This document shows positions 16,301 through 37,652 of a stretch of DNA of 64,000 nucleotides, one piece after another. Source of the stretch: a virus. How positions within the stretch are numbered: position 1 is the first letter of the stretch; each line of letters starts with the position of its first letter. Location of the stretch: positions 1 to 64,000 of the IMG/VR virus record IMGVR_UViG_3300047557_003034, one strand, 5' to 3'. A program made the position numbers and the translations under genes. The notes beneath the pieces are model-generated. The model saw nothing but the letters and a program-made list of their open reading frames with translations, was not told the DNA's origin and searched no databases.

Positions 16301-19300
16301 CAAACAGTGCATCAGGATATCTATCAGCATTGCTTGGTGGTGAAAGTAATACATCAGGAGGTTCTCGAAGTGCAGTATTAGGAGGTCGCTCAAACAGTGC
16401 TAGTGCTTATCAATCAGTAGCAGTTGGAGGTGGAACTAACTGTGCAACAGCAACTGCTGCTGCAGTAGTAGGAGGCTCTTTGAACACTGTTTCTGGAGCT
16501 TGTAGCTTTATAGGGGGTGGCACACTCAACACACTAAGCGGAATAGGAGGTGTTATTGTAGGAGGCAGCTCTAATACAGGTTCAGCTAATTTAGGTTTCA
16601 TAGGAGGTGGTGGTGGTAATGTAGTATGTAACTCCTACGCTACAGTACTAGGTGGTGAAAATAACCGAGCCATGGCCAGCCGTTCAACTGTAGGAGCTGG
16701 TAGTGGTAACCTTGCATCTGGAAGCTACTCAGGAGTCTTCAGCGGTCAAAACAATAACGGATCAGGTTCATATAGCTTCATAGGAGGTGGAGTTAGCAAC
16801 GTAGCATTAACTGTATCAGTTGTAGCTGGTGGAGGTCAAAATACAGCATCAGGTGGTTATGCAATCATAGGAGGCGGTAAACAAAACTCACTATCAGGTG
16901 ACTACGCATCTATACTAGGAGGTACTATAAATGCAGTAACAGCTATTCACGGATTTGTAGGAGGAGGCTGTAGAAATACAGTGGCAGGACCAAGCGGATC
17001 AATAGTCGGTGGTTCTAGAAACTGCATTACTACTGCAGGAGTTGAAAGCTTCATAGGTGGTGGTTATGGTAACTGTACAACAGCAGCTTGTACAGCAATC
17101 TTGGGCGGTGGATTCAACACAGCATCAGCAGCTTTTGCAGGTGCATTTGGCTGCAACTTGAATGCAAGTCAAGCTTGCCACTTCTACGTCAACAACTTAT
17201 CAGTACCAGGCAACCTAACCGGTTCTAACATGGTACTTAGCGGTAAGCTAACAGTATGTCAGATAGAAGTACAAATCTTATCATCATCAGTAAGCTTCTT
17301 TACAGGATCTACAATCTTTGGATCTTGTTTAACAAATACACATCAGTTTACAGGATCAGTTAGTATAACTGGAAGTTTGAGGACCTGCGGTCCAGTTTGC
17401 TTTACGCAAACTATGGCTGTAGGTAGCGGATCTACTGCATCAGGAACTTATAGCAGTGTTGCAGGTGGTTTATCAAACACAGCATCAGGCAACTGTTCAC
17501 ACGTGGGTGGCGGTAGAGCTAATACGACATCAGGTGGATTTAGTACTGTAGGTGGTGGTTTTTCAAACAGCTCATCTGCAAACTATGCAACTACAGCAGG
17601 AGGTATTGGTAACAGAGCAGCTGGTGATTCTTCCTTCGTAGGTGGTGGTGGTAGCAACCTCGCATGTGGCAACTGTTCAGCAGTCGTAGGAGGTAGCCTT
17701 AACAGTGGATCAGCTGCTTTCACATTTGTTGGTGGTGGTTCTGATAACAGAGCGACTGCATTTGCATCAGCGGTTGTAGGTGGTCAAGTTGGTCTAGTAA
17801 GTGGAGAATACTCAACGATATCAGGAGGATATAGAAATACTGTAGCTGGGTGTTTTGGATTCGTAGGAGGTGGGTATGAAAATACCGTATCAGCGCAGAC
17901 TGGATCAATAGTGGGTGGTCGTAGTAACTGTATCTGCATAAGTGCGAGTGGATCATTCATAGGTGGCGGTCGAAGTAACATAGTCAGAGGACTCCTCGCA
18001 TCGGCAGTAGGAGGTGTAGGCAACTCAGCATCGGGATCATACAGCTTTATAGGAGGTGGTAGTAGTAATGTAGTTGAGAGTTGTGGTGGAGCAGTTGTGA
18101 GTGGTACAGGTAACATTATACGAGCTGTAGTAGGAGGACAAGGATTTATAGGAGCAGGTGCTGCTAATACGGTATCAGGATGCAGAGCAATAATAGGTGC
18201 TGGTGTCGGTAACACAGCATCAGGAGATGATAACGTTATAGGAGGTGGCTTTTACAACACAGTAAGCAATTACCAATCAGTTGTAGTAGGTGGCTATCAA
18301 AACGTAGCAAGTAATACAAGAGTATTCATAGGTGGCGGTCAAAACAACTTAGCTTGTGGTAGTTTATCAGTTGTAGCAGGTGGTCAGCTAAATACTGGAT
18401 CAGCAAATTTAACATCTGTATTAGGAGGTTTTGGTAATCGTGCAACAGCTGCAGGAGCAGTTGCTGTAGGTGGTTCTTCAAACCAATCCGCAGGTGCATC
18501 CGGATTTATTGGTGGAGGCTTCAACAACACAGTATCAGCACCCACTGGTTCAATAGTAGGTGGTGCCTTTAACTGTCTTTGCACAGCAGCATGTGCAGCA
18601 TTTATAGGAGGTGGCCAACAAAACACTGGTTCAGGTGTAATGAGCTTTATTGGTGGTGGAATTTGCAATGTAGCATCAGGCAACTGTTCAACAATAGTAG
18701 GCGGTCAACAGAACACTGGTTCAGGCATATTCAGCTTTATGGGTGGCGGTGGGAGAAATGCTGCATTAGGTGCCTGCTCTACAGTAGGTGGTGGTGAAAT
18801 AAACATTGCAGGCAATCAACTATCAACAGTATCAGGCGGGTATAGAAACTACGCATGTGAATATGGTGCTACTGTAGCAGGTGGTATAACAAACTGTGTA
18901 TGCGGTTACATAGGAACTATAGCAGGTGGATTTGGAAATGCAGCATCAGGTTCTTATTCTTTTGTAGGAGGAGGTAGACAAAATCTAGCGTTAGCAGCAT
19001 CAAGTTCTATAGTAGGTGGTTGTAGTAATACAATCTGCATAAGTGCAAGTGGATCATTCATAGGTGGCGGTCAAAGCAACACAGTATCAGGACTACTGTC
19101 AGCAGTGGTTGGTGGTCAGAGTAATCTAGCATCAGGATCTCATAGCTTTGTAGGAGGAGGATCTAGTAATGCTGTTCGCACTTGTTTCTCATTCATAGGA
19201 GGTGGTACTGGAAACTCGATAACAACAAGTTGCTGTTCAGTAATTGTCGGTGGTCAAAACAACACTATCAGCGGTGATTTCTATCAAAACTGGCACTTTA

Positions 19301-24746: not shown

Positions 24747-27700
24747 ATGGCATACTTACAGTGTACGGTCATTACTGGGTCTCAAAATGTATTGAGTGTT
24801 ATAGGTTCAGGTAGTGCCACGACATCTTCTTTGTTATCTGTCGATGGAAATAGCGGAAGGCTGTTCCAAGTAACCGACACATTATCTGGTTCTCTCTTCT
24901 CTGTCAATACAGTATCGGGTCTACCCGTAATAGAGGCATTTTCCGACAACACTGTCCGCATTGGACAGTACGGTCAGAAGGCACTTTTTGTATCACAATC
25001 CAAGGTAGGAGTTGGCAAGGAAGACTCACTTAACGGAACACTAGACGTATCAGGCAGCTTAACTGTTACCGGATCAACCAATATCAACGGTAATCTCACA
25101 GGATCTAATGCTCTTTTGACAGGAACTTTGACAGTGAACACGATCAATGTCAGCATACTGTCATCTTCAATAAGCTTCTTTACGGGTTCTACGATATTTG
25201 GATGCTCAATTTCCAATCAACATCAATTTACGGGATCTGTTAGCATAACAGGAAGTTTAAGAACATGCGGTCCCATGTGCTCCACTACAACAATGGCAAT
25301 AGGTAGTGGATCTACAGCATCAGGCATCTACAGTAGTGTAGCAGGAGGTAGATTGAACACAGCATCAGGAAACTATTCACATATAGGAGGCGGTAGTGGT
25401 AGCCTAGCATTAGGTGTAAATTCGTTTATAGGCGGTGGTCAGTTTAACTGTATTCCTGCCGGTGGTCAATGTGCAGTAATAGGAGGCGGTCAATACAACA
25501 CTGGATCGTCGGTGTTAGGTTTCATTGGTGGTGGTACCAATAACAATATGTCTTGTTTTTACGCTGTGATTGGAGGTGGTATATCAAATACAACAAGTGG
25601 ATACGGCTCAGTAATCGCAGGAGGTAACATAAACAATAACTCAGGTAGATGGGGATTCTTAGGTGCTGGACGCTCAAATCAGCTATCAGGAAACTGTACT
25701 GCTATCGTTGGTGGTGGTAGTAACACGGTTAGTGGATTCTACAATGCAATAGTAGCAGGATGTGCTAATACTGTTAGTAATAGTGGTAGTTTCATTGGTG
25801 GAGGCTTTGGTAACACGGTATTAGCAGATACCGGATCAATAGTAGGTGGTCGTAGTAATATAATCTGCTTAGGTGGCTCCGGTTCATTTATAGGTGGTGG
25901 CCAAAGTAATACAGTCTCCGGTAAGTGCAGTGCGGTAGTAGTAGGTCAGCTTAATAGTGCTACTGGTGAAAATGGATTTGTAGGCAGTGGTTATCAAAAC
26001 TCATTCACTGGTTTTAGAGGTGGTATTGTAGCTGGTCAGCAAAATACGTTATCATCCGTTTACGGATTTATAGGTTCAGGTCTCTCAAACGTAGTTGCAG
26101 CTAGTTCTACCTCAATAATAGCTGGTCAAAATAACTGTGCTATTGGAGCACTTTCCATTATAGGAGGTGGTAACTTCAACAGAATGTCAGCTAACTGCGC
26201 AGCAGTAGTAGCTGGTACGTACAACACGGGTTCAGGAGCAGGCAGCTTCATAGGTGCTGGTAGTGGAAGTGTGGCAGCAGGAGCTCTAACATTTATAGGA
26301 GGCGGTCAATTTAACTGTGCATCAGCTAACTATGCAGCAGTAGTAGGAGGCTTTCAAAATACAGGTTCAGGTACGTTTAGCTTTGTGGGTGGAGGCGGTG
26401 GAAATACTGCAGCAGGTGCATGTTCTACAGTAGGCGGTGGTGAAATAAACATTGCAAGCAGCCAGATATCAACGGTATCAGGTGGATATAGAAACTATGC
26501 AGCAAGCTACGCTGCAACTGTAGGGGGTGGATTGCTAAACTGTGCATGTGGATACAACGGAACTGTATCAGGCGGATACAGAAACTCAGCATCAGGAAGC
26601 TACTCTTTTGTAGGAGGAGGTAAGCAGAACCTAGCACTAGCAGTATCAAGTTCAGTAGTAGGAGGCTGGCTTAACTGTGTAACTACTAATGGTACTGGTT
26701 CATTCATAGGAGGTGGTCAGGGCAACACAGTAACAGGACGACTATCAACAGTAGTAGGTGGTGCTGGTAACCAAGTTACCGGAAACTGCTCAACAATATC
26801 TGGTGGATACTTTAACGTAGCTACTAATACATTAGCAGCAGTAGTAGGTGGTCGGAATAATCAAGCACGAGGAGAAAATAGCGTAGTAGGTGGATATTTC
26901 AACTGTGCTTGTGGTGTTTCAAGCATAGTAGCAGGCGGACACAATCAGACTGTGCTAAGCAGTTATGGCACTGTAAGTGGAGGTTACAACAACTGTATTA
27001 CATCAACTCTAGCTGATTCATCGACAATTAGTGGTGGATATCAAAATAGAATATCAAGCATCCGTTCCGTCATAGCAGGAGGTCAAAATAACGTTATCAG
27101 TGGAAACCGATCATTCATAGGGGGTGGTCGACAAAATACAGCATCAGGCAACTATGCATCAGTAGCAGGTGGTAGTGGAAGTGTAGCATCAGGACTTAAC
27201 TCATTCGTAGGAGGCGGTCAATTCAACCTAGCAAACGGTGCATGTGCATCGGTAGTAGGTGGCTTTCAAAACACTGGTTCAGGTGGATTTAGCTTTGTAG
27301 GAGGCGGTACAGGAAGTATTGCAGCAGGACTTTATAGCTCTGTAATAGGTGGATTCATAAACTGTGCTAGCCAAGTCTACGCAACAGTAGGTGGTGGTGG
27401 TAGGAATCTTTCAAGTGGAAACAGTACGACAGTAAGTGGTGGCTATGGTAACCAAGCAACAGTCACCTTCGCAAGTGTGTTAGGTGGTGTAGGCAACGTA
27501 GCTACGGGACATACCTCAACTGCGGTAGGAGGACAATCCAACTCAGCAACAGCTTGTCATTCGTTTGTAGGAGGTGGTGCATCAAATACGGTAGCAGCAG
27601 AAACAGGATCTATAGTAGGTGGTCGTAGTAACAGCATAACTTCAAACGGCTCTGGTTCATTTATAGGTGGTGGTCAAGGTAACATAGTCTCAGGACAGCT

Positions 27701-30700
27701 ATCGACAGTGGTAGGTGGTCTTGTTAATCAAGTTACTGGCTGTCATAGTGTTGTGGGAGGTGGTATAACTAACTGTGTAACTGGAAATTGCTCTACAGTA
27801 GCAGGTGGCAGACTTAACACTGTAAGTAATAATTATTCTGTAATTGCTGGAGGTAATGTTAATACTGCATCAGGTCAAGCTTCTTTCGTAGGTGGTGGCT
27901 TCCGAAATACAAGCGGACTCACCTATTCAATAGTAGTTGGTGGTATAGATAACATATCAAATGCTAACAGATCAGTAATAGTTGGTGGTGAGTCCAATTG
28001 TATTGTGACCGGTGGTTATAGTTTCATAGGCGGTGGTCAACTGAACACTGGATCAGGAGCGTTTAGCTTCATAGGAGGAGGTAGTGGTAGTGTGGCAGTA
28101 GGAGCTAATTCATTTATAGGAGGCGGTCAATTCAACATAGCAGGTAACTGTGCAGCAGTAGTAGGTGGGCAATTAAACACAGGTTCAGGGTACTGGAGCT
28201 TTGTAGGTGGAGGCTGTTTGAATCTAGCAATTGGAAACAATTCATTTGTGGGTGCTGGTAGGCAAAACTGCACTACGCAAAACTGTTCGGTATCAGTTGG
28301 AGGATACAACAATGTTGCTAGCGGTGTCAATTCAACAGTAGTTGGAGGCTTTGTAAACACAGCAAGTGGTTATAGATCGGGAATACTAACTGGTCAAGGT
28401 AACGTAGCAGATGGTCAGTGGAGCTTTCTTGGTGGTGGAAACTTCAACCAAGCAAACGGCGTCTGCTCAGTTACTGTGGGTGGTAGATTTAACTGCTCAA
28501 ATGCAACATCGTCTTTTGTAGGTGGTGGATGTGGAAACTACGTTGTAGCAAACAGTGCATCAATAGTAGGTGGACACGGTAACATAGTAACCGTTGGAGG
28601 CTCTGGTTCATTTATAGGTGGTGGTCAAGGAAACTTAGTATCAGCACAGCTATCAGCACTGGTAGGAGGTTTTGGTAACCTAGCATCAGGAAATGGCTCA
28701 TTTGTAGGAGGTGGTGTTATAAACTGTGCAACTGGAAACTGCTCTACAGTAGGTGGAGGACGTTGGAATGTAGCATCAAACAACAGTGCAACTGTTATAG
28801 GAGGTTGGGTTAACACAGCATCAGGTCTTTATAGTGTGACAGCAGGTTACGAAAACAAAAACTCAGCCAATTACGGAGTAATACCAGGAGGTGGTACTAA
28901 CTGCTTACAAGCAGGTGCAAGCTATTCAACAATATCAGGAGGCTACACAAACATATTAACTAACACATACTCTGCAATTGGAGGTGGTCTTCGAAACAGT
29001 GGGTCAGGTGCATTTAGCTTCATAGGAGGTGGTTTCTGTAACAACAACGCAGCAGCAGGAGGCTTTATAGGAGGTGGTTTTAACAACTGTTTAACTACAG
29101 CTGCAGTATCAGCTTCAATAGCAGGCGGTGATAGAAACTGTGCTACAGGCTGCTTTGCATTCATAGGAAATGGTCAACTGAACACTGGATCAGGAGTTTA
29201 CAGCTTCGTTGGAGGTGGTTCTGGAAATAGAGCAACACTCAACGGTGCTGCTGTTGTGGCAGGCACAACTAACGGAGCTACAGACGTAGCTGCATTTGTA
29301 GGAACTGGTTTTTGTAATAATGCAACTGGCAGAGCATCTGCAATCGTCAGCGGTTTTCTCAACTCAGCATCGAACTTTTACGCAGCAGTACTTGGCGGTG
29401 CTCGCAACTGTGCAATTGCTAGAGCATCAGCAATAGTAGGTGGATGTGTAAATGCAGCAAGAGCTTCCGGATCATTCATAGGAGGTGGTCAACAAAACTG
29501 CAACTCAGGAGATTGTGCAGTGATAGGTGGTGGTATCCAAAATTGCCTAACAGGTAATGCGTCAGTTTTAACAGGAGGTAGTGCTAATGCAGTTGGTGCA
29601 CCACATGCATTCCTGGGAGGTGGTCAATTCAACTTAACATCAGGATCCCACTCTAGTATAGTTGGTGGTGTACTTAATTGTGTTATGGGCAATTGTACAA
29701 CCGTAGTTGGTGGTCAAAGCAACACTGGTTCAGGAGCATGGAGCTTTGTAGGAGGCGGTCAGTGTAATAACGTATCAGCAAATTATACAACACTATCAGG
29801 AGGATACTTCAATACAGCATCAGGTAGGTATGCAACACTCGTAGGTGGAGATTCTAACACAGCTGGCGGTAGAGCTAGTTTTGTTGGTGGAGGCATTAAC
29901 AACAGAACATGTGCACCAGCCTCATCATCAGTTCTTGCTGGTGGTCAAAGTAACGTATTGCAAGGACTGAGAAGTGCAATGTTGGGAGGCTATCTCAACA
30001 CTGTATCAAGCACATACGGAACAATAGGAGGTGGTTATTTCAATATAGTAGGCGGAGCAAACGGATTTATAGGTGCAGGTGACACCAACTTTGTATCAGG
30101 ATCACATGCAAGTGTGGTAGGAGGATTTGGAAACTGTGCAACAGGCAACTGCTCAGCAGTAGTAGGAGGTTTTCAAAATACCGGATCAGGCATAGCTAGT
30201 TTCGTAGGAGGTGGCATTCAAAACTGTGCTTGCGGTTGCAGGACTTTTGTAGGAGGTGGATCTAATAACTGCGCATTCGATAGCTGGGCAACAGTAGGTG
30301 GCGGCTATCTTAATGTGGCCAGCGGATCACATAGTACAGTTGGAGGTGGCTGTACAAACATAGCTAGTGGATCGGCTGCTACTGTGGCTGGTGGATCTAA
30401 CAACTGCGCATTTGAACTCTCGGCAACTGTGGGTGGTGGTGGAGTGAATACTGTTAGAAGGTGTTTTGGTACAATTGCTGGAGGATATTTGAACTGTACA
30501 GATGGTGCTTTTGGAACCATCAGTGGCGGTTATCAAAACAGAGCTAGTGGATCCCACAACTTTATAGGCAGCGGTCGCTGTAACACATCCAGCGGATCTT
30601 ATGTGGCAATAGTAGGCGGACGGTTCAACTGTATTGAAGGAGCAGTCTCCTATAGCTTTTTAGGAGGTGGTCAGTTGAATATTGTGGCTGCAACAGCAGC

Positions 30701-31298
30701 TACTATAGCAGGTGGTGATAGAAACTGCATAACAGCAGCTTGTTCAGCAATCTTGGGAGGCACTCTTAACACTGCATCAGCAGTATTTGCAGGAGCTTTT
30801 GGATGTAACATTAATGCAAATGTAGCAAACCACTTCTTTGTTAACAATCTTAACGCAACAAATAACATCACGGGATCAAATGCTCGCTTTACAGGTACAG
30901 CAACAATAGGTTCTGCACTTGCAGTTGGAGCAATAACGCCATCAGCAACAGTAGGTCGTATTGACGCAGCCAACGACGTAGTAGCATTTTCAACTTCAGA
31001 TAGGAATCTCAAGACCAATCTTACTCCAATTTCAGATGCACTTTATAAGATAGCGGAGATAACAGGATATGAATTTGATTGGATACCAAACGAAGAGATA
31101 CATGGGTACGAAGGTCATGATGTAGGTATCATAGCTCAAGAGATAGAGAAAGTACTTCCTGAAGTGGTAACAACAAGATCTAACGGCTACAAAGCAGTTA
31201 AGTATGAGAAGATTGTACCACTCCTCATTCAAGCAATTAAAGAACAAAGCCAGCAAATAAAGAGATTAGAAGAGTTAATCAAGACAATCAAAGGGTAA
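24747..31298 (+). CDS. Giant repeat fibre with S74 chaperone (2183 aa)
   Basis: Residues ~1-180 carry a module shared with the 843-aa fibre (SVDGNSGRLFQVTDTLSGSLF...FSDNTVRIGQYG) and the linker found inside the first giant fibre (SFFTGSTIFG...GSLRTCGP). One long block of the ~15-residue N-T-x-S-G-x-x-S-x-V-x-G-G repeat then runs from ~183 to ~2020 (about 120 units). It is closed by the same AFGCN/VNNLN cap and a short beta segment (TIGSALAVGAITPSATVGRI). The C-terminus is a peptidase S74 chaperone with Ser2084-Lys2089 (SDRNLK), GIIAQEIEKVLPE and a terminal coiled coil. It is probably a second long fibre or a partner of the first. Autocleavage would remove ~100 residues. Confidence 0.9.
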   Translation: MAYLQCTVITGSQNVLSVIGSGSATTSSLLSVDGNSGRLFQVTDTLSGSLFSVNTVSGLPVIEAFSDNTVRIGQYGQKALFVSQSKVGVGKEDSLNGTLDVSGSLTVTGSTNINGNLTGSNALLTGTLTVNTINVSILSSSISFFTGSTIFGCSISNQHQFTGSVSITGSLRTCGPMCSTTTMAIGSGSTASGIYSSVAGGRLNTASGNYSHIGGGSGSLALGVNSFIGGGQFNCIPAGGQCAVIGGGQYNTGSSVLGFIGGGTNNNMSCFYAVIGGGISNTTSGYGSVIAGGNINNNSGRWGFLGAGRSNQLSGNCTAIVGGGSNTVSGFYNAIVAGCANTVSNSGSFIGGGFGNTVLADTGSIVGGRSNIICLGGSGSFIGGGQSNTVSGKCSAVVVGQLNSATGENGFVGSGYQNSFTGFRGGIVAGQQNTLSSVYGFIGSGLSNVVAASSTSIIAGQNNCAIGALSIIGGGNFNRMSANCAAVVAGTYNTGSGAGSFIGAGSGSVAAGALTFIGGGQFNCASANYAAVVGGFQNTGSGTFSFVGGGGGNTAAGACSTVGGGEINIASSQISTVSGGYRNYAASYAATVGGGLLNCACGYNGTVSGGYRNSASGSYSFVGGGKQNLALAVSSSVVGGWLNCVTTNGTGSFIGGGQGNTVTGRLSTVVGGAGNQVTGNCSTISGGYFNVATNTLAAVVGGRNNQARGENSVVGGYFNCACGVSSIVAGGHNQTVLSSYGTVSGGYNNCITSTLADSSTISGGYQNRISSIRSVIAGGQNNVISGNRSFIGGGRQNTASGNYASVAGGSGSVASGLNSFVGGGQFNLANGACASVVGGFQNTGSGGFSFVGGGTGSIAAGLYSSVIGGFINCASQVYATVGGGGRNLSSGNSTTVSGGYGNQATVTFASVLGGVGNVATGHTSTAVGGQSNSATACHSFVGGGASNTVAAETGSIVGGRSNSITSNGSGSFIGGGQGNIVSGQLSTVVGGLVNQVTGCHSVVGGGITNCVTGNCSTVAGGRLNTVSNNYSVIAGGNVNTASGQASFVGGGFRNTSGLTYSIVVGGIDNISNANRSVIVGGESNCIVTGGYSFIGGGQLNTGSGAFSFIGGGSGSVAVGANSFIGGGQFNIAGNCAAVVGGQLNTGSGYWSFVGGGCLNLAIGNNSFVGAGRQNCTTQNCSVSVGGYNNVASGVNSTVVGGFVNTASGYRSGILTGQGNVADGQWSFLGGGNFNQANGVCSVTVGGRFNCSNATSSFVGGGCGNYVVANSASIVGGHGNIVTVGGSGSFIGGGQGNLVSAQLSALVGGFGNLASGNGSFVGGGVINCATGNCSTVGGGRWNVASNNSATVIGGWVNTASGLYSVTAGYENKNSANYGVIPGGGTNCLQAGASYSTISGGYTNILTNTYSAIGGGLRNSGSGAFSFIGGGFCNNNAAAGGFIGGGFNNCLTTAAVSASIAGGDRNCATGCFAFIGNGQLNTGSGVYSFVGGGSGNRATLNGAAVVAGTTNGATDVAAFVGTGFCNNATGRASAIVSGFLNSASNFYAAVLGGARNCAIARASAIVGGCVNAARASGSFIGGGQQNCNSGDCAVIGGGIQNCLTGNASVLTGGSANAVGAPHAFLGGGQFNLTSGSHSSIVGGVLNCVMGNCTTVVGGQSNTGSGAWSFVGGGQCNNVSANYTTLSGGYFNTASGRYATLVGGDSNTAGGRASFVGGGINNRTCAPASSSVLAGGQSNVLQGLRSAMLGGYLNTVSSTYGTIGGGYFNIVGGANGFIGAGDTNFVSGSHASVVGGFGNCATGNCSAVVGGFQNTGSGIASFVGGGIQNCACGCRTFVGGGSNNCAFDSWATVGGGYLNVASGSHSTVGGGCTNIASGSAATVAGGSNNCAFELSATVGGGGVNTVRRCFGTIAGGYLNCTDGAFGTISGGYQNRASGSHNFIGSGRCNTSSGSYVAIVGGRFNCIEGAVSYSFLGGGQLNIVAATAATIAGGDRNCITAACSAILGGTLNTASAVFAGAFGCNINANVANHFFVNNLNATNNITGSNARFTGTATIGSALAVGAITPSATVGRIDAANDVVAFSTSDRNLKTNLTPISDALYKIAEITGYEFDWIPNEEIHGYEGHDVGIIAQEIEKVLPEVVTTRSNGYKAVKYEKIVPLLIQAIKEQSQQIKRLEELIKTIKG
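25131..25320 (+). repeat. Linker module (copy 2)
   Basis: Protein-level copy of 17251-17440 (SSSISFFTGSTIFG, HQFTGSVSITGSLRTCGPMC), again directly before a repeat block. Confidence 0.8.
25293..30840 (+). repeat. 45-bp repeat block C in second giant fibre
   Basis: About 120 degenerate 45-bp units coding the same 15-residue repeat as blocks A and B, with interspersed longer SIVGG...GSFIGGG super-motifs and the shared cap at the end. Confidence 0.85.
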
Positions 31299-31301
31299 GT
31301 T

Positions 31302-32189
31302 ATGGCGATACCAGCATCAGGACCGGTTTCAATGAGTATGCTCAATGTTGAATTGGGCAGAAGTTTTAACACAGCCAACTCAGCTCTGGCAGGTTCTTCG
31401 ACACCTTCCATAGGATCTCTATTCTATCTTGGTGCACAGAGTGGTAGTCTTAATCAAACAGCACCACATGCAATAAGTGAGTGGTACGGATACACTACTA
31501 TAATTCCACAACCTACACTTAAGTATGATGCTTACAGCAGTAGCTACGACGGATCTGTATCAGTTAACTTAGGTTCAGGAGGTACAACGTATAACTTAAA
31601 TGAGACAGGAACTGTAGAGACTGGTAGTGGAACTAATCTAGGAAGCAATTACTATAATATAAACTTGCCTGGAACTACAACTGGATATCTTACATCTAGT
31701 TTTTCTCCCGTACCGTCCAACACTTCATTCTCTATTAGTATAATGGCATTTATTACTGGTAGCTCTGGTCAACTGTTTAGTATAGAATTAGCAACAGGTA
31801 ACCGACTATACATCGAGACTAATTTTGTAACAACTGGTGTGTACGATATCAGAGCTAATTTATACTCAGCAGGTACTAGAGTAGTATACTTATCTGGATC
31901 TATAAATCAAAATGATTGGAATCACATAGTTTGGGTGCATGATAACAACTTAGCTACGGACGATAGTAAGCTGTACATCAACAATGCATTAGCTCAATCT
32001 GTCACAGCAACCAATAACATATCTCAAACTGATGCATATCAAATCAGAGTTGGTATTAACATACTTTCGACCATTGTTAGCTATAGATTAGGATCGGTCT
32101 CTTTCTGGAATGGTTACTATCTAGCACCTTTACAAATAGAAGACCTATATAACGAGTTCTACGACAGATACGTGTACGTACCCGTATAA
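31302..32189 (+). CDS. LamG-like adhesin 5 with phage-type N-terminus
   Basis: 295 aa. The N-terminal ~65 residues (PASGPVSMSMLNVELGR...ISEWYGY) form a short domain often found at the start of phage tail or fibre proteins, probably a virion-attachment segment. The remainder is a concanavalin-like jellyroll: FSISIMAFITGSSGQLFSI, QNDWNHIVWVHDNN, SKLYINNALAQS and a closing LGSVSFWNGYYLAPLQIEDLYNEF, which corresponds to the KVYNRALS..EI..NYN end of the other LamG proteins. It lies 3 nt after the second giant fibre. Confidence 0.8.
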   Translation: MAIPASGPVSMSMLNVELGRSFNTANSALAGSSTPSIGSLFYLGAQSGSLNQTAPHAISEWYGYTTIIPQPTLKYDAYSSSYDGSVSVNLGSGGTTYNLNETGTVETGSGTNLGSNYYNINLPGTTTGYLTSSFSPVPSNTSFSISIMAFITGSSGQLFSIELATGNRLYIETNFVTTGVYDIRANLYSAGTRVVYLSGSINQNDWNHIVWVHDNNLATDDSKLYINNALAQSVTATNNISQTDAYQIRVGINILSTIVSYRLGSVSFWNGYYLAPLQIEDLYNEFYDRYVYVPV

Positions 32190-32250: not shown

Positions 32251-32589
32251 ATGATGATAATTGGCAAAATCGATCCGACAGCTACAATATACCTTCAATC
32301 GGATCCGTTTAATCCTTCTACAATTACAGGATCTTACATTGCTGCTGTAGCACGTCCTTATGTTCTTGGTACCAACAGTGTAAACTTCCAAGTGTCTTAT
32401 GGTAACTGTACTTTCGATGAAGGTGGTAACATAACTGAGTTCACTACTATCTTCAATAGTAATTGCAACCTTTCTGGTACAGCAATTGAGACTTGGGGTA
32501 CAGATGACACAGTAGTTCTTCAAGAGATTGCACAAGCGCAAGGTACAACTGTTACACAGTTCTACTCAAGCAGTCTTAACATATTCTAA
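32251..32589 (+). CDS. Small beta-rich protein, last of the fibre region
   Basis: 112 aa, no recognised family. It is beta-rich with Asn/Thr/Ser (TATIYLQSDPFNPSTITGSYIAA) and two Cys (residues ~51 and ~70, GNCTF and SNCNL) that could pair. It ends with an amphipathic helix and SSSLNIF. It has its own octamer promoter and is followed by a 42-bp gap before the sugar module, so it is probably a late virion protein and not part of the sugar operon. Confidence 0.68.
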   Translation: MMIIGKIDPTATIYLQSDPFNPSTITGSYIAAVARPYVLGTNSVNFQVSYGNCTFDEGGNITEFTTIFNSNCNLSGTAIETWGTDDTVVLQEIAQAQGTTVTQFYSSSLNIF

Positions 32590-32631: not shown

Positions 32632-33507
32632 ATGAACATAATATTCCAAATCAACGGAGGAATAGGTAAATGTATTATGGCTACCGCTGTATGCGAAGCC
32701 ATTAAAAAGCAATACCCAAACTCTAAGCTCATAGTTGTTTCAGGATACGCAGATGTGTTCTTAAATAACCCACATGTTGATAGATCGCTGCAGTTTGGCA
32801 GCATAAGTTACTTCTACGAAGAGTATTTGCAAAACGAGAAGGACTTCAAAGTATTCGCTCACGATCCGTACGTACAAACCGAATATCTCTACCAAAATGA
32901 ACACTTGATTCAAACTTGGTGTGAGATGTTCGGCATTGCTTATGATGGTGAATACCCAAGCATACATCTGACAGATAGAGAAAAAACATTCCTAAGCTCC
33001 AAATTTACATCGGATAGACCGATGCTAGTAATGCAAACAAATGGAGGAGCTGATGCAAACTTAAAGTACTCCTGGGCAAGAGATTTACCAGCCAATAACG
33101 TAACGGATGTAGTACAATACTTTTCTGAGCATTATAACATTGTGCATATAAGAAGAGAAGATCAAATACAATATCCAGGCACAATACCAGTATCAGACAA
33201 CTTCAGATCACTTGTGGTGCTTATATCACTGAGCCATAAGAGGCTGTTTATTGATAGCATGGGTCAACATGTGGCTGCATGTTTAGGATTACCATCAACA
33301 GTGTGTTGGGTTGTGAATAAACCTGAAGTCTTTGGATACCCAATACACGATAACATCATCTGTAAACCATTCACCAAGAAACCAGAGCTGAGAAATTCAT
33401 ACTTCCAGCAGTTCAATATTGGTGGTGATTTACTAGAATTTCCCTATAACTCCGAACACGAAGTGTTTGATAGCAAAGACATCATAAACTCAATACTAAA
33501 ACAATAG
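32632..33507 (+). CDS. GT9 / heptosyltransferase-like glycosyltransferase
   Basis: 291 aa, a little short for GT9 (~320-350). The N-terminal NIIFQINGGIGKCIMATAVCEAIKKQYP is the Gly-rich first strand-loop of GT-B heptosyltransferases, followed by KLIVVSGYADVFLNNPHVD. The C-terminal half has VMQTNGGADANLKYSWARDLP, YNIVHIRRED and SHKRLFIDSMGQHVAACLGLPS, corresponding to the nucleotide-sugar binding part (FIGxDSGxxHxAAALG). ADP-heptose is the usual donor for this family. Three heptose-synthesis genes follow in the same cluster, which strengthens the donor assignment. The acceptor is unknown: host surface glycan, or Ser residues of the giant fibres. Confidence 0.75.
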   Translation: MNIIFQINGGIGKCIMATAVCEAIKKQYPNSKLIVVSGYADVFLNNPHVDRSLQFGSISYFYEEYLQNEKDFKVFAHDPYVQTEYLYQNEHLIQTWCEMFGIAYDGEYPSIHLTDREKTFLSSKFTSDRPMLVMQTNGGADANLKYSWARDLPANNVTDVVQYFSEHYNIVHIRREDQIQYPGTIPVSDNFRSLVVLISLSHKRLFIDSMGQHVAACLGLPSTVCWVVNKPEVFGYPIHDNIICKPFTKKPELRNSYFQQFNIGGDLLEFPYNSEHEVFDSKDIINSILKQ

Positions 33508-33512
33508 GTTAC

Positions 33513-34331
33513 ATGGAGAAGTTATTCTTTCAGAGTTCTTTACCGAGAGCAGGCAGTACACTTTTACAAAACATTCTCGCACAAAACCCAGACATCTATG
33601 CTACTCCTACATCAGGAGTGTTAGAACTTGTGTTTGCAGCAAGAGGAAATTACACTGAATCACCAGAGTTCATTGCTCAAGATCCAAGTCTAATGCGAGC
33701 AGGCTTTTTATCCTTTTGTAGAAAGGGAATGGATGGCTTTTACGAAGCTGTGACAGACAAGAAGTACGTAGTAGATAAATCAAGAGGATGGGGAATACAC
33801 TACGACTTCCTCAACCTAATCTATCCAGAACCCAAGATCGTTGTCATGGTTAGGGACCTAAGAGACATCTTCTGTTCAATGGAGAAGAACTTCAGAAAGA
33901 ATCCTGACAAAGCTAGTTCAGTTCTTAACTGGTCACAGATGAGCGGTACAACAGTACCTAAGAGGATTGATATATGGGCTCAATCACAGCCGGTAGGACT
34001 TGCAATAGAGAGGTTGTCTGAAATATTCAGGCAGGGACTTGACAGTAAAATGCTATTTGTTCGCTTTGAAGATCTTTGTTTATATCCCGAAACTGAGATG
34101 ACTAGGATCTATCAATACCTCGATATCCCCTACTACCAGCATGATTTTGATCATATAGAACAAGTGACAAAGGAAGATGATGAGGTGTATGGTATGTTCG
34201 GAGATCACCAGATCAGAACTAAGTTAGCTCCTGTACCATCTACTGCTAAACAAGTACTTGGAAAGGATGTAACAGAGTGGATTTGGAATGCATACCCCTG
34301 GTATTTCCAACAGTTTAGGTACACAAAATAA
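33513..34331 (+). CDS. PAPS-dependent sulfotransferase
   Basis: 272 aa. The 5'-phosphosulfate-binding loop is SLPRAGSTLLQN (residues 9-20). The 3'-phosphate-binding motif is VVMVRDLRDIFCSM near 109-122, followed by RFEDLCLYPETEMTRIYQYL, typical of the sulfotransferase family. It transfers sulfate from PAPS to a hydroxyl, most often on a sugar. The adjacent APS kinase would supply PAPS, and the preceding glycosyltransferase suggests a glycan acceptor. There is no signal peptide, so it is cytoplasmic. It lies 5 nt after the glycosyltransferase. Confidence 0.87.
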   Translation: MEKLFFQSSLPRAGSTLLQNILAQNPDIYATPTSGVLELVFAARGNYTESPEFIAQDPSLMRAGFLSFCRKGMDGFYEAVTDKKYVVDKSRGWGIHYDFLNLIYPEPKIVVMVRDLRDIFCSMEKNFRKNPDKASSVLNWSQMSGTTVPKRIDIWAQSQPVGLAIERLSEIFRQGLDSKMLFVRFEDLCLYPETEMTRIYQYLDIPYYQHDFDHIEQVTKEDDEVYGMFGDHQIRTKLAPVPSTAKQVLGKDVTEWIWNAYPWYFQQFRYTK

Positions 34332-34335
34332 AAGT

Positions 34336-34773
34336 ATGATATACTGGTTCACTGGTCAGCCTGGAGCAGGCAAAACAACTCTCTGCAAAAGTCTCATTCT
34401 TCAGTTCTACCCGTCTAAGACAATTCACGTGGATGGTGACGACATAAGAGAGATTTTTGAAAATAAAGATTACTCGGAAGCAGGTAGAAGAAAAAACGTA
34501 GAGCTTGCACAGAACATTGCCTACTTCATGCATAAAAAAGGCTACCTAGTGTTGGTTTCACTAGTATCTCCTTATAAAGATCAAAGAGAAGCCTTCAAAG
34601 CACGGCTAGGTGACTCAATTAAGGAAATCTACGTACATGCGTTTACAGATAGGGGTAGAACGCAGTTTCACGTGGCTAATTACGAGCCTCCTACTGAGAA
34701 CTACATTGACATAGATACAACAAATGCCACTGAATTTGAGTCGTTAAAACAGCTATTAACACAGATAAAATAA
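34336..34773 (+). CDS. cysC: Adenylylsulfate (APS) kinase
   Basis: 145 aa from the ATG at 34336. The longer in-frame reading from 34288 overlaps the sulfotransferase and adds nothing typical. P-loop GQPGAGKTT (7-15), then HVDGDDIREIF matching the family LDGDNxR motif, EAGRRKNVELAQNIAYFMHKKGYLVLVSLVSPY and a TDRGRTQFHVANYEPP segment. It makes PAPS from APS and ATP. It is shorter than cellular enzymes (~175-200 aa) but keeps the core motifs. No ATP sulfurylase is visible in the window, so APS comes from the host or from another enzyme; the HxGH protein at 37045 is a speculative candidate. Confidence 0.87.
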   Translation: MIYWFTGQPGAGKTTLCKSLILQFYPSKTIHVDGDDIREIFENKDYSEAGRRKNVELAQNIAYFMHKKGYLVLVSLVSPYKDQREAFKARLGDSIKEIYVHAFTDRGRTQFHVANYEPPTENYIDIDTTNATEFESLKQLLTQIK

Positions 34774-35135
34774 TGATAAAAGAAGCAGAAATAGTTGAAA
34801 AAGGTTGGGGACAGGAAGTGGTGTTTGCAAATAGCCAGCAGTATTGTGGTAAAATACTCGTATTCAAGGAAGGTGGTACTAGCTCAATGCATTACCACAT
34901 ACAAAAGCAAGAGACTTGGTACGTTACAAAAGGTAAGTTTCTGTACAAGTACATTGATACAGATACAGCAGATGTACTAGAGGCTGAACTAAATGTCGGA
35001 GATGTTGTGACAAATCTAAGAGGAGAACCACATCAGTTAATAGCTCTAGAAGAGAATAGTGTAATATTCGAAGTGTCAACAGAGCATATAGATGAGGATT
35101 CTTACAGAGTATTTAAAGGAGATTCACAACAATGA
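34773..35135 (+). CDS. Cupin protein, sugar-isomerase type
   Basis: 120 aa, a single small cupin barrel: SSMHYHIQKQETWYVTKGKF (first cupin motif with His-x-His and Glu) and GDVVTNLRGEPHQLIAL (second motif with His). This resembles the cupin half of mannose-6-phosphate isomerase / GDP-mannose pyrophosphorylase proteins. It overlaps the APS kinase stop by 1 nt and the next gene by 4 nt, so it is translationally coupled in the sugar operon. Whether it isomerises or epimerises a sugar phosphate or only binds one cannot be read from the sequence. Confidence 0.8.
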   Translation: MIKEAEIVEKGWGQEVVFANSQQYCGKILVFKEGGTSSMHYHIQKQETWYVTKGKFLYKYIDTDTADVLEAELNVGDVVTNLRGEPHQLIALEENSVIFEVSTEHIDEDSYRVFKGDSQQ

Positions 35136-35545
35136 AAGTTTGGGTAAATGGAACATTTGATGTTTTACATTTGGGGCATATTAGGTTACTTGAGTATGCT
35201 GCCAGTCATGGAGAGGTCAGAGTGGGGGTGGACACAGATGAGAGAGTTAGACAGGCGAAAGGTCCAACCAGACCCTTTAACATACTTAGAGATAGGATGG
35301 CTATGCTATCATCTATCAGGTATGTTAGTAGCGTCGTGTCTTTTGGTACAGATGATGAACTTGTACAATGTGTTATGGAGTACAAACCTGACATTATGGT
35401 AGTTGGCTCAGATTATGAGAACAAGAGGGTTATTGGTCATGAGCATGCGGATGTTTTAATATTCTTTCCCAAAATCCAATCGTACAGCACAACTGACATA
35501 TTAAGGTATGAAACAAATATTAATAATCGGGGATCAGTGTATTGA
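35132..35545 (+). CDS. Heptose-1-phosphate adenylyltransferase-like (HldE C-terminal type)
   Basis: 137 aa nucleotidylyltransferase. Its GTFDVLHLGH (residues 7-16) carries the HxGH motif, RPFNILRDRMAML is the conserved second half and SYSTTDIL is the ISSTxI-like motif. Length and motifs match the second domain of HldE/RfaE, which makes ADP-D-glycero-beta-D-manno-heptose. Glycerol-3-phosphate cytidylyltransferase is the main alternative; the kinase and epimerase that follow favour heptose. In bacterial HldE this domain follows the kinase in one chain. Here it is separate, comes first and overlaps the kinase gene by 38 nt. Confidence 0.82.
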   Translation: MKVWVNGTFDVLHLGHIRLLEYAASHGEVRVGVDTDERVRQAKGPTRPFNILRDRMAMLSSIRYVSSVVSFGTDDELVQCVMEYKPDIMVVGSDYENKRVIGHEHADVLIFFPKIQSYSTTDILRYETNINNRGSVY

Positions 35546-36251
35546 TAAGTTTGTGTACGGAGAAGCAAAGAGACTAAGTCCTGAAGCTCCTGTACCAGTC
35601 TTTACACCTCATAATACAGCAACCAGCAATGGAATGGCTGCAAATGTTGCACGTAATCTACGAGCAATGGCTCCCGAATACATGATAACAACTCAACACA
35701 ATCCGGAAACCATAACTAAGACTAGGTATATCGATCATAAGACAAATCATATGTTTCTTAGAGTGGATGAAGGAGATACTGTGAAACCACTTGAACTAGA
35801 TCTAAAACTAAGAGCTTCCATCCCAGAATTTGATGCTGTTGTAGTAAGCGATTATAACAAAGGATACCTACCACTCAGCGTTATTGAGTACATAGGTAAG
35901 AATGCCAAAATGTCTTTCATTGACTCTAAAAAGAAGCTGCCACTAGAAGTTGCTAGTCTTTATACTATTGTCAAAATGAACGAACAAGAGTATGAGAGCT
36001 ATAACGGGTCTCTAGACTCAATCTCAAACAGCCTCATAATCACACTAGGTAGTAAGGGAGCTAAGTATAAGCACAAAGTATTCAACTCACTGCAGCCAAA
36101 AGAAACGATAGATGTGAGTGGTGCTGGAGATACTTTCCTAGCAGCATTCGTATATTGGTACCTACAGACAGGATCAATCCAATCAGCAATAGTCCATGCC
36201 AATGAAAAAGCCGCTATAGTTGTAACTAAAAAAGGAGTTGCTGTACCATGA
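35508..36251 (+). CDS. PfkB-family heptose-7-phosphate kinase-like (HldE N-terminal type)
   Basis: 247 aa, compact compared with the ~320-aa HldE kinase domain. It keeps ILIIGDQCIDKFVYGEAKRLSPEAPVPVF (the HldE DxxxDxYxxGxxxRxSPEAPVPV pattern), AANVARNL, VVVSDYNKGYL, and the PfkB signature DVSGAGDTFLAAF with its catalytic Asp. The predicted reaction phosphorylates D-glycero-D-manno-heptose 7-phosphate at C1. It overlaps both the adenylyltransferase gene (38 nt) and the epimerase gene (4 nt), indicating coupled translation. The SPEAPVPV motif is specific enough to favour heptose kinase over generic ribokinase. Confidence 0.85.
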   Translation: MKQILIIGDQCIDKFVYGEAKRLSPEAPVPVFTPHNTATSNGMAANVARNLRAMAPEYMITTQHNPETITKTRYIDHKTNHMFLRVDEGDTVKPLELDLKLRASIPEFDAVVVSDYNKGYLPLSVIEYIGKNAKMSFIDSKKKLPLEVASLYTIVKMNEQEYESYNGSLDSISNSLIITLGSKGAKYKHKVFNSLQPKETIDVSGAGDTFLAAFVYWYLQTGSIQSAIVHANEKAAIVVTKKGVAVP

Positions 36252-37060
36252 ATATAGTAGTGACTGGTCATTTAGGTTTTATTGGTCGTAATCTGAAAGC
36301 AGAGCTTGAAAAGAAACACCAAGTCTACGGGATTGAAGTAGATGCCTATGATGATGCAGACTGGCAATTTACACTAAAAAACAAACTGGATAGCATAAAA
36401 CCAACTGCTATTTTTCATGTAGGAGCAATATCAAACACGCTTCATACGGACGTTGAAACCATAATGAAACTAAACTGGGAGACAACAACAGTGTTTTCAG
36501 ACTACTGCAAAGCAGTAAACATTCCACTAATCTACAGCTCAACTGCAGCTATCTACGGAGATGGTGAAGGTAAGAAAAACCTATATGCTTGGACTAAGTA
36601 TGCAGGAGAGAAGTATGTAATAGCAAACAATCAAATAGCTCTCAGGTACTTCAACGTATACGGACCTGGAGAGGATAAAAAGAAACGTATGGCATCAGTT
36701 GCCTACCAAGCCTTTTTGCACGATATACACGGAACCAAGATCAAGCTGTTCAAAGGAGAACCAAAGAGAGACTTCGTATACGTAAAGGATGTAGTGGATG
36801 CAAACATATTCGCACTTAAGAATTACTTCAAACTAACTAAGAAACAATATGATGTGGGTGTTGGTAAAGCGGTTACGTTTGAGTATCTTATGGATATAAT
36901 GAATCTCAAGTACGCATATCAAGATATATCAGCAATACCAAACAACTATCAATACCATACCCAAAGTAATCCTGAAAACTGGATGAAGGGTTGGAAACCT
37001 AAATACGACGTTGAGAAAGGATTAAATGAATACAAGCAACACTTATGGAATACTATTTAG
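36248..37060 (+). CDS. hldD: ADP-heptose 6-epimerase-like SDR
   Basis: 270 aa (HldD is ~310). Extended SDR: GHLGFIGRNL (NAD-binding GxxGxxG, residues 7-14), YSSTAAIYGDGEG, a YxxxK-type active site in LYAWTKYAGEKY, then LRYFNVYGPGEDKKKRMASV and KLFKGEPKRDFVYVKDV, both characteristic of HldD. It would convert ADP-D-glycero- to ADP-L-glycero-manno-heptose. With the two preceding genes it completes the last steps of ADP-heptose synthesis. GmhA and GmhB steps are not seen here. It overlaps the next gene by 16 nt. Confidence 0.87.
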   Translation: MNIVVTGHLGFIGRNLKAELEKKHQVYGIEVDAYDDADWQFTLKNKLDSIKPTAIFHVGAISNTLHTDVETIMKLNWETTTVFSDYCKAVNIPLIYSSTAAIYGDGEGKKNLYAWTKYAGEKYVIANNQIALRYFNVYGPGEDKKKRMASVAYQAFLHDIHGTKIKLFKGEPKRDFVYVKDVVDANIFALKNYFKLTKKQYDVGVGKAVTFEYLMDIMNLKYAYQDISAIPNNYQYHTQSNPENWMKGWKPKYDVEKGLNEYKQHLWNTI

Positions 37061-37443
37061 CAAGAGCAGCTGGAGATTTGCTGACAAAAGGACCTAAATA
37101 TGCCATGTTCATAGGAAGATGGCAACCATGGCATGCTGGACATAGGTGGCTTATTGATCAAGCACTTAACAAAGGTAAAAATGTTCTCATCTGCATAAGA
37201 GATGTAGAACCTGATGATAAAAATCCTTGGACTGCAAAGCAGATACTTGACAATCTTGCAAACGAGCTTAAAGATTTGCTTTTAGAAGGCAGAGTAGTAC
37301 TGCTTGTGATTCCTGACATAGAGTCTGTCAACATAGGTAGAGGTGTTGGATATGATGTAATAGAACATACACCACCCGAAGAAATCAGACAGATATCAGC
37401 AACAGCAATCAGGGAAGAAATGAAAAAGGAAGGTAAACTGTGA
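37045..37443 (+). CDS. HxGH nucleotidylyltransferase (NMNAT / ATP-sulfurylase-like fold)
   Basis: 132 aa. MFIGRWQPWHAGHRWLIDQAL holds HxGH (residues 30-33). Conserved ICIRDVEPDDKNPWTAKQI and the C-terminal ISATAIREEMKK (ISxTxxR) complete the fold. The GRWQPWH form resembles NadM-type NMN adenylyltransferases. I also associate this subtype with APS kinase and sulfotransferase genes in other phages, but could not check that. It could therefore work in NAD synthesis, in sulfate activation or on a sugar phosphate. Its ATG lies inside hldD (16-nt overlap); an internal ATG at 37105 gives a shorter protein that still has the motif. Confidence 0.8.
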   Translation: MEYYLARAAGDLLTKGPKYAMFIGRWQPWHAGHRWLIDQALNKGKNVLICIRDVEPDDKNPWTAKQILDNLANELKDLLLEGRVVLLVIPDIESVNIGRGVGYDVIEHTPPEEIRQISATAIREEMKKEGKL

Positions 37444-37652
37444 AGGTAACTGCAAAACGACATATAGCAAAAACAATCAGCTACCGTATTGTAAGTACGT
37501 TGATAGGGTTTTTGATAATGTGGTGGGCAACAGGAAGTGTGAAAGTGGGAGCGGCTTTTGGTGTAGCTGAACTGATCTATAAACCAGTTCAATACTACAT
37601 TCATGAGAGAGTTTGGTATAAATGGATAAAATTTGGATTAGTGAAAGAGTAG
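37440..37652 (+). CDS. DUF2061 small membrane protein
   Basis: 70 aa from a GTG overlapping the previous stop (GTGA). It matches the DUF2061 pattern: KTISYRIVSTLIGFLIMWWATGS, GAAFGVAELIYKPVQYYIHERVWYK. There are one or two membrane segments (about 15-32 and 36-52). DUF2061 genes occur near sulfate-assimilation genes in some bacteria (from memory). Its tight coupling to this cluster, which contains APS kinase and sulfotransferase, fits that. It is the last gene of the sugar/sulfate operon. Molecular role unknown. Confidence 0.83.
   Translation: MKVTAKRHIAKTISYRIVSTLIGFLIMWWATGSVKVGAAFGVAELIYKPVQYYIHERVWYKWIKFGLVKE

Follow-up and report, generated by a model that had tools for sequence, protein, structure and literature searches.

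Bacterial adhesins and, in a few mycobacteriophages, virions are known to be glycosylated by dedicated enzymes, and the heptose genes of cyanophages are usually regarded as being of the lipopolysaccharide (LPS) type. Here, we describe a phage locus in which a glycosyltransferase (GT), a sulfotransferase (ST), and a set of heptose genes stand behind two giant repeat fibres. It occupies positions 32632-37652 of IMG/VR virus record IMGVR_UViG_3300047557_003034, of which the first 64,000 nucleotides form the stretch analysed here (the window); the whole record has 77,361 bases and is possibly incomplete. Judged from sequences and models alone, it is reasonably probable that the locus is a module dedicated to glycosylation and sulfation of the fibres, here probably with heptose. 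This reading has strong comparative support: in 50 of 58 evaluable loci the GT and ST pair follows a short-period repeat fibre (repeat open reading frame, ORF, at most 3 kb from the module), and in 42 of these 50 the period is 15 residues.

The closest described system is that of the bacterial autotransporter heptosyltransferases (TibC and Aah, family TIGR04414) of the AIDA-I/TibA adhesins (PMC4358343). It resembles the locus in that a dedicated GT-B enzyme of similar fold stands beside a surface protein with Ser/Gly-rich beta-solenoid repeats, and true members of the family adjoin the same type of fibres in relatives of the window phage. Enzymes of this family modify Ser of a beta-solenoid adhesin beside them, and the corresponding neighbour in the window is a beta-roll repeat fibre. 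In contrast to TibC, with its iron finger of Cys339, 342, 358, and 370 (PMC4358343), the window GT falls outside TIGR04414, has no iron finger, and carries Lys for the catalytic Asp110 of the GD motif. The acceptor repeats also differ, as those of autotransporters have 19 residues and are accompanied by a barrel, whereas those here have 15 residues and an S74 end. Finally, an ST is close by in most of the loci described here. To our knowledge, autotransporter heptosyltransferase systems are not accompanied by one.

Phage-encoded glycosyltransferases also modify virion structural proteins of mycobacteriophages (Freeman et al. 2023, cited in PMC12619734). In those phages the targets are capsid and tail-tube C-termini, whereas giant repeat fibres are the proposed target here, with ST, APS kinase, and heptose genes alongside. 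In cyanophages (P-SSM2, S-CAM1, S-SM2, and others), the genes for heptose kinase/adenylyltransferase encode the same short kinase, HldE1, which is 38-44% identical to that of the window, and a cupin lies beside HldE1 in viral relatives; the cyanophage genes, however, are not next to the GT/ST pair described here or 15-residue fibres. The GT9 enzymes WaaC and WaaF share with the window GT the fold of its model (TM-score 0.53-0.67) and an Asp-x4-His motif (D208, H213), but identity is 14% or less, the window GT has no Pfam GT9 match, and it reads GxGK for GxGD. A search of the open-access literature found no relevant paper on phage heptosyltransferases and fibre glycosylation, or on combinations of phage sulfotransferases with fibres.

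Organization of the locus

As listed in the first-pass annotation, nine tightly packed ORFs are present, all on one strand and mostly overlapping, with intergenic spacings of +5, +4, -1, -4, -38, -4, -16, and -4 bases in order. Their families were named by profile searches of Pfam, NCBIfam, and PHROGs. Adenosine 5'-phosphosulfate and its 3'-phosphorylated form are abbreviated as APS and PAPS.

13330..22197, plus strand: giant fibre 1, 2955 residues; beta-roll repeats of 15 residues (consensus of the type GxxNTASGxYSxVGG), with a peptidase S74 domain at the C-terminus; proposed acceptor.
24747..31298, plus strand: giant fibre 2, 2183 residues; same 15-residue repeats as fibre 1, beta-roll Pfam match, C-terminal S74 domain; proposed acceptor.
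31302..32189, plus strand: tail protein of LamG type, separating fibre 2 from the module; Laminin_G_3 matched weakly.
32251..32589, plus strand: small conserved protein, 112 residues; precedes GT or ST in many relatives.
32632..33507, plus strand: GT, GT-B glycosyltransferase; GT9/TibC-like fold (model), GGxGK signature; module core.
33513..34331, plus strand: ST, PAPS-dependent sulfotransferase; Sulfotransfer_3; module core.
34336..34773, plus strand: APS kinase homologue; APS_kinase, short lid; presumed PAPS supply.
34773..35135, plus strand: cupin; opens the heptose cassette.
35132..35545, plus strand: HldE2, heptose-1-phosphate adenylyltransferase domain protein; rfaE domain II match.
35508..36251, plus strand: HldE1, heptose-7-phosphate kinase; rfaE domain I match, shortened, GAGD motif retained.
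36248..37060, plus strand: HldD, ADP-heptose epimerase homologue; ADP-heptose epimerase match.
37045..37443, plus strand: NT, small nucleotidylyltransferase of the HIGH superfamily; NMNAT-like; travels with APS kinase and DUF2061.
37440..37652, plus strand: DUF2061 predicted membrane protein; DUF2061 match.

The module had been described as lying directly after the fibres; this holds approximately, as two small genes (31302-32189 and 32251-32589) intervene. The 112-residue protein possibly has a role in fibre attachment or as a chaperone. The APS kinase probably starts at 34336 rather than at 34288.

Viral contigs were scanned with the GT and with the HldE1 kinase, which gave 68 and 63 loci, respectively; once profiles were used, seven loci carried both, the window included. 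In the 52 GT loci whose available sequence extends 5 kb or more 3' of the GT, ST is found in 49, APS kinase in 40, and NT together with DUF2061 (37045-37652 in the window) in 32, the last two being almost never separated. The four heptose genes are complete in 6 of the 52 loci, never occur singly, and are inserted between APS kinase and NT. By these counts, the module core is GT and ST, with APS kinase, NT, and DUF2061, and the heptose cassette is an optional, all-or-none insert; the cassette is therefore rejected as the core of the system. Dozens of independent viral contigs show the arrangement again, so that it is not due to chance.

Pairing of the enzymes with repeat fibres

The repeats of both fibres were first taken for those of autotransporter-like adhesins. 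Pfam gave only S74 and a beta-roll model, with no translocator barrel or autotransporter domain in either fibre, and NCBIfam gave no family at E up to 1. True autotransporters are ruled out by the S74 ends and the lack of a translocator, and the sequences identify phage-type beta-roll/S74 fibres. A fold search with the repeat model found no significant match in the PDB despite a confident model; its alignment was built from internal repeats, and the confidence may be inflated. Cysteines are unusually many (3.1-3.5%) in both fibres (13330-22197 and 24747-31298) and stand at scattered repeat positions.

Of the 531 ORFs in these GT loci that have 180 residues or more, 76 are periodic. When a piece of the fibre repeat was used for the reverse search, GT and/or ST stood alongside in 14 of 23 loci, and several of the others end at the fibre. 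The type of enzyme also goes with the type of repeat. Within one myovirus lineage, GT/ST of type 1, GT/ST of type 2, or TibC-type enzymes instead occupy the slot between fibre and sheath. A second GT clade, reached via a tail-tube lineage and then scanned separately, is linked to 17-residue repeats (NTTGxNNTAIGxNALxx), which share the core N-T-A-x-G with the 15-residue ones. With near-duplicates removed, clades T1 and T3 count 40 loci with 15-residue repeats and none with 17, and clades T2 and T2b count 1 with 15 and 23 with 17 (Fisher p 1.6e-16, kinship between loci ignored). Two points weigh against the fibres as the acceptor: 8 of the 58 loci have no periodic fibre nearby, and fibre and enzymes are partly inherited as one block, so that the contingency counts are not independent events.

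A rival reading has GT and ST hitch-hiking on a mobile block of tail-fibre genes, with a small molecule or a virion protein that is unrelated to the fibres as their substrate. Fibre loci are hot spots of recombination. In related phages the fibre-to-sheath slot also holds a tryptophan halogenase (L157:947-2422), a carbamoyltransferase (L187:3295-4959), a C-methyltransferase (L164:278-1528), and other methyltransferases, and by its gene content it looks like a general tailoring island. However, one stretch (L294/L296) carries both pairings side by side, namely a 17-residue fibre with ST and a T2b GT, and 15-residue fibres with a T3 GT and a T1-like ST, which argues for a functional partnership, as do the bacterial operons described below. 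Clade T3 is also instructive. Its GT is closer to T2 (54% versus 40%), although its ST is closer to T1 (60% versus 51%) and its fibres are of T1 length; the ST therefore follows the fibre type more closely. We regard hitch-hiking as very unlikely.

In genomes, the GT occurs in eleven loci, all but one titled as metagenome-assembled genomes (MAGs) of Bacteroidetes, Bacteroidia, or Flavipsychrobacter; L343 is exceptional in being phage-like. On several Bacteroidota chromosomal contigs (up to 360 kb), the gene for a repeat protein of 15-residue period is accompanied by those for a secreted NHL protein bearing a T9SS sorting tail, the GT, an FkbM methyltransferase, and an ST, and neither S74 nor tail genes nor other visible phage genes were seen there. 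From their gene content, the sets on MAG contigs L338, L339, L340, L341, and L348 are probably the cellular counterpart of the phage system.

The same evidence bears on the possibility that the module alters host surface glycans (LPS or capsule), changing the receptor or blocking superinfection. LPS is the usual target of heptose and GT9-like enzymes, the cyanophage kinase genes of the same type stand away from the GT/ST pair described here, and a predicted membrane protein such as DUF2061 would suit this role. Yet the GT/ST subtype tracks the repeat type, the pair keeps its place next to the fibre also in loci with flipped orientation (L114, L116, L117, L119), the bacterial homologues stand behind 15-residue repeat proteins, and no flippase, ligase, or polymerase for lipid-linked glycans is recognised within the module. 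Relatives that bear the heptose genes with the module always have them beside GT/ST, so that the refuting pattern named in the first-pass annotation (heptose genes in related phages that lack the giant fibres, always next to LPS-type acceptors) does not apply. Modification of host glycans is thus improbable, and from adjacency, co-variation, and the bacterial pairings we infer that the giant fibres are the likely acceptor, as had been proposed.

The glycosyltransferase

The window GT matches no Pfam family at E 0.001 (GT9, PF01075, included) and no NCBIfam family. Its profile found nothing among the sequences of solved structures, and a fold search was therefore needed. An AlphaFold2 model built with 28 relatives in the alignment (pLDDT 80, pTM 0.81) finds its best PDB matches among GT9 enzymes, WaaF, WaaC, and TibC, including 3tov and 1psw. 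This comparison had been suggested in the first-pass annotation, and its outcome agrees with a heptosyltransferase-like enzyme: the predicted fold is GT-B of the GT9/heptosyltransferase type.

The sequence departs from both groups. A GGxGK motif occupies the GxGD site of GT9/TibC in 82 of 82 aligned phage and bacterial relatives, so that Lys13 of the window GT, invariant in all of them, takes the place of the catalytic Asp. YSWxRDxP and DSxxxH are also retained across the alignment. The four Cys of the iron finger were not found in it, and TIGR04414 (curated cut-off 200 bits) has no match in the window GT or elsewhere in the record. Membership in TibC/Aah is thereby ruled out for the window GT. 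With GGxGK in place of GxGD in all 82 relatives, the GT represents a separate GT9-like family, distinct both from TibC/Aah and from ordinary GT9, and its donor and mechanism may differ from those of both.

Predicted sulfate activation and transfer

The ST matches Sulfotransfer_3 with 71.6 bits (gathering score 27) and keeps the motifs for PAPS binding (PRxGSTL; R114 and S122 invariant). Among solved structures it comes closest to protein-tyrosine sulfotransferases, though weakly (E 6e-8), and this likeness does not decide among Tyr, Ser/Thr, and sugar as the acceptor. The APS kinase scores 61.6 bits in Pfam (gathering score 21.1), has APS kinases as its best solved relatives, and conserves the residues for APS binding. 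It is 145 residues long; the matches end ahead of the lid, which is not of full length.

NT has its best sequence matches among NMN adenylyltransferases. APS kinase and NT are fused in one PHROGs family, phrog_10255; hence the two probably work together, and NT is possibly part of sulfate activation. NT may conceivably be a minimal ATP sulfurylase, as ATP sulfurylase belongs to its superfamily and NT travels with APS kinase, but its best matches are the NMN adenylyltransferases. Because ST stands with APS kinase, sulfate in the product of the module is well supported by the gene families, in line with the earlier suggestion of sulfate on the fibres, and there is good reason to expect that the module adds it.

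The heptose cassette and the identity of the sugar

For HldE1, HldE2, and HldD the heptose profiles are the best family, yet the scores (kinase 134.7, adenylyltransferase 91.2, epimerase 168.2 bits) lie below the curated cut-offs (345, 181.5, and 274.6), the proteins being short phage versions. No match to the GmhA isomerase (TIGR00441) was found in the window record or in 32 other heptose-gene phage records. The cupin, which adjoins HldE1 in 52 of the 63 viral kinase loci, has weak similarity to D-lyxose isomerase; possibly it substitutes for GmhA, or the host supplies the step. In relatives, a small HAD-type protein (L002:8954-9259; weak Pfam match), absent from the window, stands between cupin and HldE2 and could be a GmhB-like phosphatase. 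In other phages, heptose kinases also occur without this GT/ST pair.

TibC-type enzymes do occur among the relatives, and it is there that the analogy drawn in the first-pass annotation holds. The TIGR04414 cut-off is exceeded in 17 of 48 GT records, compared with 2 of 33 control phages with a heptose kinase and no window-type GT (Fisher p 0.003). In 16 of the 17 records the distance between this enzyme and the GT is 0.8-5.2 kb; in the remaining one the two are close if the record is circularly permuted. The enzymes match TibC in the PDB at E 7e-76 and conserve the four iron-finger Cys and the catalytic Asp. The tail-tube lineage has three records with a TibC-type enzyme, two of them located in the fibre-to-sheath slot. 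One uncultured phage protein bears the automatic UniProt label 'Glycosyltransferase Aah/TibC'. No significant tie between the cassette and TibC-type enzymes emerged: such an enzyme is present in 4 of 5 records with the epimerase and in 11 of the 28 that lack it (Fisher p 0.15).

These findings admit another reading, in which GT and ST do act on the fibres, yet the sugar moved by the GT is a different one, and the cassette serves another step, for example that of an unsampled TibC-type enzyme elsewhere in the genome or of host heptosyltransferases. Heptose genes are absent beside most close GT homologues, and homologues 57-73% identical have none in the available flanking DNA. Together with the invariant Lys and the missing TIGR04414 match, this weighs against heptose as the sugar of the GT. 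Cassette and a separate TIGR04414 enzyme occur together in L087, L092, and L120, and a record of only 77 kb leaves room for such an enzyme elsewhere in the genome. On the other side, the best structural matches of the GT are ADP-heptose enzymes, the cassette sits inside the GT/ST operon, and no TIGR04414 enzyme is found in the window record or in the nearest cassette-bearing relatives (L002, L071, L072), which leaves the GT as the obvious consumer of heptose. We consider the different-sugar reading unlikely as a whole. Since close GT and ST homologues occur without heptose genes, heptose as the sugar that the window GT itself transfers is no more than plausible, the odds being slightly under even.

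Other genes of the record

Genes for a 6-pyruvoyl-tetrahydropterin synthase-like (QueD-type) protein and GTP cyclohydrolase I (L150:1558-2019 and L150:6311-6955; record positions 61558-66955) suggest a 7-deazaguanine pathway. DNA hypermodification was considered as the role of the module and rejected, as no gene within the module supports it; the 7-deazaguanine-type genes are a separate matter. The phage also encodes its own GroEL (cpn60), preceded by a small gene of GroES type (L150:12509-14462).

Proposed mechanism and implications

In the fibre-dedicated reading, late in infection, the GT would put a sugar on the 15-residue beta-roll repeats of both giant fibres encoded just upstream. The ST would add sulfate from PAPS, either onto this sugar or straight onto the fibre. 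PAPS would come via the APS kinase, perhaps aided by NT and DUF2061, and the inserted cupin-HldE2-HldE1-HldD would raise or provide ADP-heptose, so that the added sugar in the window phage would probably be, or include, heptose. Coated in this way with sulfated glycans, the fibres would change in receptor binding, stability, or recognition. What the analysis shows is gene content, families, predicted folds, conservation, and co-variation; from these we infer the acceptor, the order of the reactions, heptose as the sugar, and this benefit.

Chances seem evenly balanced that the GT and ST found a protein glycosylation-sulfation system not described before, with a new GGxGK glycosyltransferase family devoted to 15- to 17-residue beta-roll repeats. 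It would be common to surface proteins of Bacteroidota and fibres of phages, would move from one phage backbone to another together with its fibre, and would be fed here by a phage ADP-heptose pathway. Sulfation of phage fibres is undescribed in the open-access literature searched, and a GT and ST pair behind matching repeat proteins in many phages and bacteria points to a little-known form of phage surface decoration. The match between enzyme and repeat length makes the acceptor question directly testable. By tail sheath, the nearest isolate is a Flavobacterium phage. If the proposal is true, a large number of uncultured phages from aquatic habitats, with Bacteroidota as their apparent hosts, would coat their receptor-binding apparatus with sulfated glycans, host-range prediction from fibre sequence would change, and new glyco- and sulfotransferases acting on simple repeats would be at hand.

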